A stretch of DNA of 64,000 nt from the NCBI RefSeq assembly GCF_900169485.1, contig NZ_LT821227.1, positions 682,001 through 746,000 on the forward strand, written 5' to 3'. Made by a program: the position numbers and the translations under genes. The notes beneath the pieces are model-generated. The model saw only the letters and a list, made by a program, of their open reading frames with translations. It searched no databases and had not been told where the DNA came from. Below, piece by piece: positions 36,786 to 39,223 of the stretch; positions within the stretch are counted from its first letter, which is position 1, and every line of letters starts with the position of its first letter. This DNA comes from Phoenicibacter congonensis (GTDB lineage: Bacteria > Actinomycetota > Coriobacteriia > Coriobacteriales > Eggerthellaceae).

Positions 36786-36863
36786 GGTGGGTGTAGTTCA
36801 GTTGGCTAGAATGCCAGATTGTGGCTCTGGAGGTCGTGGGTTCAAGTCCCATCACCCACCCCA
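36786..36863 (+). tRNA. tRNA-His (anticodon GTG)
   Basis: Cloverleaf with acceptor GTGGGTG paired to CACCCAC, an extra G at position -1 opposite the discriminator C, as expected for histidine. The anticodon stem is CCAGA/TCTGG with loop TTGTGGC. T-arm GTGGGTTCAAGTCCCAT. CCA is encoded. Confidence 0.95.
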
Positions 36864-36933: not shown

Positions 36934-37009
36934 GCGCCATTAGCTTAGTTGGTAGAGCAGGGGACTCTTAATCCCAAGGTCGAAGGTTCGAGTCCTTCAT
37001 GGCGCACCA
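36934..37009 (+). tRNA. tRNA-Lys (anticodon CTT)
   Basis: Acceptor GCGCCAT pairs with ATGGCGC. Anticodon loop CTCTTAA sits in a GGGA/TCCC stem, T-arm GAAGGTTCGAGTCCTTC, and CCA is encoded. 70 bases after tRNA-His. Confidence 0.95.
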
Positions 37010-37034: not shown

Positions 37035-37109
37035 GGGCCCATAGCTCAATGGCGGAGCAAGGGACTCATAATCCCGTGGTTGCAGGTTCGAGCCCTGCTG
37101 GGCCCACCA
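37035..37109 (+). tRNA. tRNA with anticodon CAT (Met or Ile2)
   Basis: Acceptor GGGCCCA pairs with TGGGCCC; anticodon loop CTCATAA in a GGGA/TCCC stem; T-arm GCAGGTTCGAGCCCTGC; CCA encoded. It is not an initiator tRNA, since the first pair is matched and the three G-C pairs of the anticodon stem are absent. Elongator Met and lysidine-modified Ile2 cannot be told apart by eye. Confidence 0.92.
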
Positions 37110-37148: not shown

Positions 37149-37700
37149 ATGACTCGTGTTTGGACTAAACAACACATTGAAGTTTTAAAACAGCTCAATG
37201 AAACGGGTCGTTATGTTGCCAAGCGAAAATTCGTTCAAAATGATCTCGGTGATGACGCTGAGCTAATGGCGCTAGTCTATGACTATCTAGTTAAATTTCA
37301 TCCTCATGTCGATCAAAATCCGGTCGATGCGGAAGTTCCAATTTGGCTTTCTTTTGAGAGAGATGCAACAATGCAACTAACTCGCAATTTTGTGATTCTT
37401 GAATTTGAGATCGATGAAGCATTAATAACAAAGGTAAACATTGCAAAATGGGGCCAGATGCTAAATTATGGCTACATTCACAAGGATGAAGATGATTTAG
37501 CAAAACATCGAGAGCTGATGAAAAACTATTGTGTTTGTGACATGGAAGCTGTGATGTCGCGTTTTTATCCGGAGCTACGTGCTGAAATAATTGAGTCTTG
37601 GAAACGTCTTTATGACGACAATGTGAAACTTGGGAGTGATGCTTCCTACGGGTTAGTTTGGGAGGTAAAAAAAGAATGGCTGAAACAGGTAATAAGCTAA
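37149..37700 (+). CDS. DUF3841 protein, copy 1
   Basis: A 183-residue protein that looks like the DUF3841 family of unknown function. Matching features are the N-terminal MTRVWTKQHIEVLKQLNETG, an aromatic-rich YDYLVKFHPH, PIWLSFERDA, and a C-terminal WKRLYDDN region ending VWEVKKEWLKQVI. No membrane segment. It begins 40 bases after a tRNA and overlaps copy 2 by 25 bases, so the two are translationally coupled. The two share the order W-x-x-Q/L start, P-x-W/YW middle, SWxRLxxD end, and are probably an ancient tandem duplication. Confidence 0.78.
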   Translation: MTRVWTKQHIEVLKQLNETGRYVAKRKFVQNDLGDDAELMALVYDYLVKFHPHVDQNPVDAEVPIWLSFERDATMQLTRNFVILEFEIDEALITKVNIAKWGQMLNYGYIHKDEDDLAKHRELMKNYCVCDMEAVMSRFYPELRAEIIESWKRLYDDNVKLGSDASYGLVWEVKKEWLKQVIS

Positions 37701-38272
37701 ATTCACCTTCAACAATCAAGCTCTATCTTAACCAGACCGATGTCGTTTGGGAAAAATTGCAAAATGAAGGCGTTGTTTTTTCTAAGTTAGACTACATTCG
37801 AAAGAAATATCAAGAGGCAGCACCAATCTTTGTCACAATCTATTCTTGGTTTGTTGGGCAAGCTTCAAGCATTGTCTCTCGTCCAGTTGGGGCAGAGTTT
37901 CCCTACTGGGCGCAACGTGAGCTTGTTAATCTTGATACCTCAGGTTCTGGGCATGTTTTTGTTGTTGAAGTTCCCCTAGATGAAGTTGTGTTGTTTGATT
38001 ACAAAGAGTGGACAAAAATTCTGCAATTTAAATATTTGGCTGAAAGCGACGATGATGAGAAGATCTTCGATAAAGAACTCGCAGCCCAAGGTGTTGATGA
38101 ATATAAAGTGCTCACAACCTCTTTTTATCCAATGCTAAAGCAGAAGATCTTGAAAAGTTGGGAGAGACTTTTTAGACATGACGCTGAAATTAAAGCTGGC
38201 GCTTCTGGAGTAAAAAGCGTTTCTGCAGCACTTTGGTGTATCAAAAAAGATTGGATTGTTGAAGAACTTTAA
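37676..38272 (+). CDS. DUF3841 protein, copy 2
   Basis: A 198-residue relative of the preceding gene. Start ATG 37676 has GGAGG nine bases upstream, preferred over the frame opening at 37658. Shared landmarks with copy 1 are KLYLNQTDVVWEKLQNEG at the N-terminus, PVGAEFPYWAQRELV, and KSWERLFRHDAE with a final CIKKDWIVEEL. The N-terminal half includes IYSWFVGQAS, in line with YDYLVKFHPH of copy 1. Identity between the two is low. Function unknown. Confidence 0.76.
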   Translation: MAETGNKLNSPSTIKLYLNQTDVVWEKLQNEGVVFSKLDYIRKKYQEAAPIFVTIYSWFVGQASSIVSRPVGAEFPYWAQRELVNLDTSGSGHVFVVEVPLDEVVLFDYKEWTKILQFKYLAESDDDEKIFDKELAAQGVDEYKVLTTSFYPMLKQKILKSWERLFRHDAEIKAGASGVKSVSAALWCIKKDWIVEEL

Positions 38273-38344: not shown

Positions 38345-39223
38345 TTAGTCCCAGATGCTATAAATTCGATCTTCCTTCGAATATTTTTCTATCGCTTTTA
38401 TAGCCTGGTTGATTAGTTTTCCTCTGTCGTCAGGCAAAGTTCCAATAAATCTCGCTGGTGGTGCTTCGAATATAGCGTCATATTTAACGGATGTTCCTGG
38501 CGAAGGCTTTATGTTCTCGACTAGCACCTTGACTTCGGTGAGGCGCTCAACTGCGTCTTCTGGTCTAAACAGTCCTGCCTTGTAGTCTTCCCAAAGAGGA
38601 GTGTGCTTGTGTAGAAACATGTCGAAGTTACAGATGTTTTGAGGTTGATGTTTGTTGAAGAAATCGGCCAGGGCAAGCGCGTTTTCGGCCCCACGTCCTT
38701 CGCCTGCAACACCACTCATGATGTGCGCGTCAAAAATCATTCCCACTTTTTTAATGCGAGTGATTGCTTCAGCAGCTTGCGCTTGATTGTGGTCTTTGTC
38801 CATAAATTCAAGGACATCATCAAGTCCGCTTTCGATTCCCAGGTAAAGATGACGAACGCCTGCATCATAGAGGTTCTGCAAATCTTCATCTGTTTTTTGG
38901 AGAATGCTTGTGACGGTGGCATCCATATTAATTTCATTACACGCTGAAAATGAAGATTTGATGTAGTTGCAAATTTCAAGAAGCTGGTTTGCTTTAAGTG
39001 AAAAGGCATTGCCATCGCCTAAGAATACTCGTTCGGGATTGCCACCCTTTTTGACCACCTGATCAATTTCATTTTTTACCAAATCAAATGGCAACACACG
39101 AAACTTTAGATGACGAAAAAGACCGCAGAACTTGCACTTGTTGTGTGTGCAGCCAACCATAACGGGAAGCATAAATGCTCCTCGCTCAAAGGGACTTCTG
39201 CATATCCTTCCTTCGTAATCCAT
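38345..39223 (-). CDS. Radical SAM protein of unknown substrate
   Basis: A 292-residue radical SAM enzyme. VGCTHNKCKFCGLF near residue 23 is the C-x3-C-x2-C iron-sulfur motif, followed by FLGDGNAFSLK, LYLGIESGLDDVL and VKYDAIFEAPP. The layout resembles the Elp3/coproporphyrinogen-like radical SAM group often annotated without a substrate. No B12-binding or SPASM domain is seen. It converges on the DUF3841 pair and stands alone. The 280-base gap beyond its start, up to pdxR, shows nothing convincing. Confidence 0.85.
   Translation of the reverse strand: MDYEGRICRSPFERGAFMLPVMVGCTHNKCKFCGLFRHLKFRVLPFDLVKNEIDQVVKKGGNPERVFLGDGNAFSLKANQLLEICNYIKSSFSACNEINMDATVTSILQKTDEDLQNLYDAGVRHLYLGIESGLDDVLEFMDKDHNQAQAAEAITRIKKVGMIFDAHIMSGVAGEGRGAENALALADFFNKHQPQNICNFDMFLHKHTPLWEDYKAGLFRPEDAVERLTEVKVLVENIKPSPGTSVKYDAIFEAPPARFIGTLPDDRGKLINQAIKAIEKYSKEDRIYSIWD

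Follow-up and report, generated by a model that had tools for sequence, protein, structure and literature searches.

The window analysed here is a stretch of 64,000 nucleotides from Phoenicibacter congonensis (contig NZ_LT821227.1, positions 682,001 to 746,000 of the forward strand), in which two adjacent genes of the DUF3841 family, hereafter A and B, lie between a group of tRNA genes and a radical SAM gene. A preliminary description had read the two as a tandem of diverged proteins of one family, overlapping by 25 bases, placed right after a CAT-anticodon tRNA and beside the radical SAM gene, and the analysis bore out both the tandem and its position. The features of the locus are as follows:

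36787..36863, plus strand: tRNA-His (GTG), called by ARAGORN, Rfam agreeing
36934..37009, plus strand: tRNA-Lys (CTT), called by ARAGORN, Rfam agreeing
37035..37109, plus strand: CAT-anticodon tRNA, called Met by ARAGORN, Rfam agreeing; ends 39 nt before gene A
37149..37700, plus strand: DUF3841 gene A, 183 aa, Pfam match, predicted ART-like fold
37661..37665, plus strand: GGAGG, probable ribosome-binding site for B
37676..37700, plus strand: overlap of A and B, 25 nt
37676..38272, plus strand: DUF3841 gene B, 198 aa from ATG, Pfam match, predicted ART-like fold
38345..39223, minus strand: radical SAM gene, convergent with the A-B pair

Both proteins scored far above the 27-bit gathering cut-off of PF12952 (A: E 9.8e-51, 172.4 bits; B: E 1.7e-52, 178.1 bits), which places them in DUF3841, and they share 22% identity across 173 residues (BLASTP 5e-17). 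The putative ribosome-binding site of B lies within the last codons of A, 10 nt before the ATG at 37676, and an alternative TTG start at 37658 would give a longer B product. The 1:72 pair of the CAT tRNA is G-C, which is not the appearance of an initiator; the tRNA would be an elongator Met or a lysidine-type Ile2 species. In one other genome of the genus (G001), whose contig begins just upstream of the CAT tRNA, the order CAT tRNA, A, B, radical SAM is preserved. The P. congonensis genome is a single contig of 1,447,956 bases and carries a third DUF3841 copy, of A type, about 570 kb from the pair. Promoter and terminator scans gave no excess over shuffles, and GC content showed no clear break at A-B.

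We scanned public genomes with the A-type alignment, a query that favours loci having A, and confirmed 65 loci, distributed over Coriobacteriia, Clostridia and other Bacillota, Enterococcus and one Synergistaceae genome. A was adjacent to B, with A first, at 46 of these loci (45 two-gene pairs and one fusion), and the remaining 19 had no adjacent B. Judged by longest ORFs, the two genes overlapped in 42 of the 45 two-gene pairs. The fusion, found in Candidatus Dorea gallistercoris (L038:5538-6962), joins A and B naturally in a single reading frame of 474 aa; in a mixed A+B alignment on this protein, the B rows landed on the A half (invariant columns). At one of the two-gene loci (L035), A precedes B and a second, distant A is also present. 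Universal, syntenic presence in the class, which the preliminary description had named as counting against its reading, proved false: the family was found in 11 of 396 Coriobacteriia genomes, with two adjacent copies in 9 of the 11, P. congonensis included. Tissierella sp. P1 (L091:4692-8159) has the A-B set twice, and in this contig the A genes of both sets are broken into short ORFs.

A quick maximum-likelihood tree of 130 DUF3841 rows, with some long branches flagged, was built after excluding L091, L059, L042, L006, identical rows and rows shorter than 150 residues. The results showed one branch containing every B row (51 rows, support 91), one containing all A rows except one (62 rows, support 80), and a third of mostly single-copy genes (13 rows, support 100), a related form that we label C. 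Generic DUF3841 rows fell outside the A+B+C branch (support 100), and the branching order of A, B and C is not fixed by this tree. A and B are thus old paralogues that go back to an ancient duplication. Nine of the ten Clostridia carriers described below (L095-L103) have a single C-type gene in place of the pair, and the C form may represent the working ancestor. Across 50 pairs, A and B distances were strongly correlated (r 0.82; permutations max 0.17), a value that co-inheritance alone would also produce. The two-subunit complex suggested in the preliminary description is supported indirectly by the constant A-then-B order, the overlap, the fusion and the correlated divergence, and we consider it quite likely that A and B form a heterodimer.

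For the gene neighbourhoods, we clustered the neighbouring genes and scanned one representative of each cluster against family profiles. Around many DUF3841 loci, genes were found for component B of glycine/sarcosine/betaine reductase (Grd), GrdX, BCCT transporters, SelA, SelB, SelD and LysR_Sec_metab; NCBIfam confirmed one gene each of LysR_Sec_metab and GrdX from these clusters. Grd genes lay near 17 of the 65 loci, sel genes or tRNA-Sec near 9, BCCT genes near 14, and any of these near 23; at the other 42 loci, many of them on shorter contigs, none of the Grd, sel or BCCT genes fell within roughly 7 kb, and the same was true of the window pair. The P. congonensis genome itself encodes SelB and carries PF09338, our Grd marker, at three places. 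At L112, its third DUF3841 copy has a BCCT-cluster gene on one side and the betaine reductase genes GrdI/GrdH on the other. Another locus (L113) holds GrdX and Grd genes together with thioredoxin-like and thioredoxin-reductase-like genes assigned by eye, and at L114 a PF09338 gene stands beside GrdX-like and TetR-like genes, likewise assigned by eye. Two further arrangements were observed: in three mangenotii genomes (L043, L044, L092), a single A precedes a RadA-like gene that matches KaiC/RecA and Lon_C, and at six Enterococcus loci (L026, L027, L047, L048, L050, L054) a convergent ABC-F-type gene, whose cluster touches 12 loci, comes next after the pair.

We then compared the distribution of the family with that of Grd. 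The DUF3841, SelB and PF09338 searches of the 396 Coriobacteriia genomes were taken as one sample, being of equal size and with matching handles where listed. DUF3841 occurred in G000, G160, G210, G211, G219, G234, G272, G277, G289, G290 and G322, and PF09338 occurred in the same set of 11 with G014 replacing G289, leaving 10 genomes common to both (Fisher 4.7e-19, with species that are not independent). The DUF3841 copy of G289, which has no Grd, is generic and outside the A/B/C subfamily, and G014 is the only Coriobacteriia Grd genome without DUF3841. Nine of the 10 genomes with both A/B/C and Grd have an adjacent pair, and G234 has a single C-type gene. SelB was present in 171 of the 396 genomes, including all 11 with DUF3841 and all 11 with Grd, and the subfamily was found in none of the 160 SelB-positive, Grd-negative genomes.

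The Clostridia sample comprised 196 genomes drawn around G433, which had been picked for having the gene. Ten carriers were detected (best hits 187.6-265 bits with the A profile), five weak generic hits and a fragment in G515 being excluded, and all ten had Grd. True Grd was present in 26 of the 196 genomes and SelB in 33, with the ten carriers inside both sets; G537 was left out of the Grd count, as its best PF09338 hit (66 bits) looks like a proline reductase. Seven SelB genomes without true Grd were also without the gene. The co-occurrence gave a Fisher value of 2.9e-10, and of 2.2e-9 (9/9) when the centre G433 was omitted; because the species are related, the Fisher values overstate the evidence. 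The A-B pair was found in G567 alone, and the nine other carriers were scored best by the C profile; this sample bears on the C form rather than on the pair, for which the link rests on the Coriobacteriia and the scan genomes. A clear copy was lacking in 16 of the 26 Clostridia Grd genomes, among them G515 with its fragment (54 bits over 61 residues), so Grd does not require DUF3841.

A further set consisted of 47 genomes, reached through 47 of the 65 loci of the scan and selected without a fixed rule. SelB was detected in 46 of them and PF09338 in 46 (47 of 48 with P. congonensis added). The pair was present in 36 of the 47, of which 35 had Grd and 35 had SelB; the exceptions, G412 (SelB missed) and G430 (Grd missed), are both titled metagenome-assembled genomes. 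Carriers of A, B or C were confined to Grd genomes in 10 of 10 cases in Coriobacteriia, 10 of 10 in Clostridia and 46 of 47 in the scan. In the other direction, presence is not obligatory, as 10 of 11 Coriobacteriia Grd genomes had the subfamily compared with 10 of 26 in Clostridia. General selenium use was rejected as the linked trait, since SelB genomes lacking Grd also lack the subfamily. The preliminary description had proposed an accessory module, and this idea was not only upheld but made specific: the subfamily tracks glycine/betaine reductase and is probably an accessory of Grd.

The radical SAM gene, described at first as isolated, was compared with 60 genomes of the family. Outside the genus, its nearest relatives were in G234 (48%) and G290 (46%), the others listed reaching at most 37%, and both of these genomes carry DUF3841 and Grd. 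The relative in G234 (L146:7239-8093) lies inside a selB/grd cluster, in the order component C genes, TetR-like, radical SAM, SelB, DUF3841, GrdX-like and PF09338 gene, where the GrdX-like and TetR-like assignments were made by eye. The relative in G290 (L147:7353-8282) lies near YedF and cysteine desulfurase. In the 65 scan loci, the gene was not found among the best 40 rows (tblastn 1e-6). Since its relatives occur in genomes with DUF3841 and Grd, the radical SAM gene of the window may belong to the same selenium/Grd setting, possibly as a further accessory.

AlphaFold models of A (pLDDT 93.6) and B (pLDDT 94.6), built from separate alignments, were compared with known structures. For A, seven DarT chains headed the Foldseek list (E 0.017-0.18), and VIA-align gave CC0527 (Z 7.6, 87 aligned, 2.7 A), Tpt1 (Z 7.4, 79-80 aligned, 2.4 A), TreTu (Z 6.5) and DarT (Z 6.2, 116 aligned, 3.8 A). 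For B, the fold search gave DarT (Z 6.0, 127 aligned, 3.9 A), Tpt1 (5.8) and 2aua, a protein of unknown function (5.8), and the best Foldseek E was 0.22. Nearly all fold rows with Z of at least 5 were ART-fold proteins, CC0527, TreX and TreTu being ART-like; Rhs toxin domains also occur among the ART fold rows. These scores are modest (all Z below 8, Foldseek E above 0.01), in a range that the tool says can be chance, and the argument lies in the agreement of two models on one superfamily; A and B are accordingly described here as having a predicted ADP-ribosyltransferase-like fold. Sequence comparison gave no parallel signal: hhalign against 9 KptA sequences returned a probability below 1% for A and for B, and sequence searches of solved structures yielded nothing useful, the A4 alignment giving two hits at E 0.3-0.4 and the A5 alignment no hit up to E 10.

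Conserved residues were assessed in the A5 alignment, which holds 64 rows of A and C. T6 (63/64), Q8, W66, G168 and W171 (each 64/64) and E172 (63/64) were nearly or fully invariant, and gene A of the window retains T6, Q8, W66, W101, E172 and E176. When the alignment was checked for an R-S-E or H-Y-E triad, the conserved candidates in A were T6/Q8, W66 and E172. By aligned ranges and DarT numbering, the canonical ART glutamate would presumably sit near 166-168 of A; the invariant G found there makes classical ART catalysis doubtful, and by position the canonical catalytic glutamate of A seems to be absent. The B proteins differ: an E matching E172 was present in 15 of 42 rows of the B alignment and a T matching T6 in 18 of 42, and gene B of the window has C at the E172 site, which is variable across B rows. 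Among the tree rows, E172 was kept in 61 of 62 A, 13 of 13 C and 20 of 51 B rows. Position 167 shows the reverse pattern: Q stands there in 41 of 51 B rows and in all 4 generic rows, compared with 3 of 62 A rows; A has mostly Y or V there and the C form has Cys. This complementary loss, of E172 in B and Q167 in A, suggests that the two subunits have taken on different tasks. Generic DUF3841 proteins resemble A and B over the full length and keep Q8, Y44, W66, S150 and W171 in 4 of 4 rows, but they score at most 61 bits with the A profile, and Grd was present in 0 of the 5 Clostridia genomes having weak hits alone.

Taken together, our preferred reading, to which we assign a probability of about 0.48, is that A and B form an ART-like heterodimer kept as an accessory of selenium-dependent Grd in amino-acid-fermenting anaerobes. 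In this model, A and B arose as duplicates inside the A/B/C subfamily and A would bind B. The working pocket would be held by A, which keeps T6, Q8, W66 and E172, and B would be a degenerate partner in which T6 and E172 are relaxed; Q8 and W66 are kept in B. The pocket may bind NAD or a related ligand. By modifying a target or sensing a ligand, the pair would control Grd or help it mature, or act in this way on its supply of selenoproteins, much as DraT acts on nitrogenase; the comparison concerns the control logic rather than kinship. That the predicted fold carries out actual ADP-ribosyl transfer is rather unlikely.

In many anaerobes of gut and sediment, the reductases for glycine, sarcosine and betaine contribute to ATP formation, and betaine reduction releases trimethylamine. 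No mention of DUF3841 or PF12952 was found in a collection of open-licence PMC papers. The pair is a widespread and matched unit, and the new result is that its subfamily occurs almost only in glycine/betaine-fermenting bacteria with selenium enzymes. A subfamily for which we found no described function, which tracks Grd almost perfectly and resembles an NAD-using enzyme, becomes a testable candidate for a helper or switch, and A/B/C should not be classed as an isolated DUF, a defence gene or a tRNA gene. LysR_Se, DUF3343, YedE and YedF, which Lin et al. 2015 (PMC5322559) give as selenium candidate genes, are, like GrdX, small accessory genes from the same gene clusters as DUF3841. Their main text makes no mention of DUF3841, whose distribution follows Grd rather than selenium use generally.

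The pair might instead sense a pathway substrate, such as betaine or another quaternary amine, through a Trp-rich pocket and control transport or reductase genes with no ADP-ribosyl transfer. W66, W101, W171 and W177 are invariant in the 64-row A5 alignment, BCCT genes and regulators (LysR_Sec_metab, GntR/FCD and TetR) lie near scan loci, and the third copy of P. congonensis sits between BCCT and GrdI/GrdH. However, W66 and W171 also occur in the 4 generic DUF3841 rows and are therefore not betaine-specific, Pfam searches found no DNA-binding domain in A or B, and at 51 of the 65 loci the neighbourhood contains no BCCT gene. We regard this reading as unlikely. Only slightly less likely still is a scheme in which A would be an active ART and B a pseudo-enzyme, the two working as a DraT-like on/off modification that switches Grd or its selenoprotein supply in Stickland fermentation, with C as the ancestor and with spread by horizontal transfer, sometimes to places beside tRNAs.

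In another reading, the pair is a passenger that moves with Grd clusters by horizontal transfer and is not linked to them in function. In the tree, window A and window B each nest among Bacillota pairs, and since this holds in both parts the window pair looks horizontally acquired; the third copy of the genome nests with one Bacillota A and with Coriobacteriia A genes. Of the 9 Coriobacteriia with the pair, 6 (G210, G211, G219, G277, G290 and G322) have it no more than about 11 kb from SelB or Grd, and in G160 it lies about 26 kb from Grd, so that joint transfer alone could yield the co-occurrence there. Against this, pair and Grd are on separate contigs in G272 and distant from each other in P. 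congonensis. Although 42 of the 65 loci have no Grd, sel or BCCT gene nearby, Grd is present in 35 of 36 pair genomes compared with 26 of 196 Clostridia, and the genera g57, g81 and g69 each contain genomes with both DUF3841 and Grd and genomes with neither. A passenger without such a link is, on this evidence, improbable.

The tRNA flank was examined with ARAGORN on the 65 scan loci (766,544 bases). Non-Sec tRNAs were found at five loci only (L051, L057, L076, L088 and L090), and in every one of these the nearest lay 84-269 nt from DUF3841. Relative to random placement within those loci, the product was 4.2e-7, with a 300-nt limit chosen post hoc, and the accompanying Poisson estimates used assumed tRNA densities; L076 and L088 lie near each other in the tree and may represent a single event. 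The tRNAs next to DUF3841 vary (CAT, Pro, Gln, Ser and Leu), and these differing identities suggest an insertion place or co-transcription over a substrate. The proposal in the preliminary description that the module had been inserted beside tRNAs held in part: the pair looks transferred and the tRNA is closer than 270 nt at 5 of 5 loci, but a search of the window with 25 bases, allowing as many as 3 mismatches, found no duplicate of the tRNA 3' end as the trace of an attachment site.

An enzyme that acts on nucleic acid as DarT or Tpt1 does, perhaps with tRNA-Sec or some other tRNA as its target, and that is needed for efficient selenoprotein synthesis, would account for DarT and Tpt1/KptA being among the best fold rows, for tRNAs within 270 nt at 5 of 65 loci and in the window, and for tRNA-Sec at 6 of 65 loci. 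The predicted fold of A and B resembles that of DarT and Tpt1/KptA (A-DarT Foldseek E 0.017, Z 6.2), but no canonical glutamate is evident, KptA has H105 where A has T6 in a non-significant alignment, and A and B share no sequence-profile similarity with KptA. A general role on tRNA-Sec also misfits the SelB genomes that have neither Grd nor the subfamily, and the adjoining tRNAs differ; we consider this reading quite improbable.

An ART-type toxin-antitoxin or defence pair, which the DarT and Rhs toxin domains among the fold rows, the two small overlapping genes and the nearby tRNAs might recall, is highly improbable and was rejected, as both genes are of one family, PADLOC gave no match for four proteins up to E 10, no phage record matched P0002, no viral contigs were confirmed (A1), no macrodomain antitoxin comparable to the DarG partner of DarTG was present in the five window neighbour genes scanned, and a link to the Grd trait would be unexpected. 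A search of B against BFVD returned two viral proteins below E 0.001, one nameless and the other Gp610 of Bacillus phage G. The plasmid matches comprised four records, each of 0.9-2.6 Mb.
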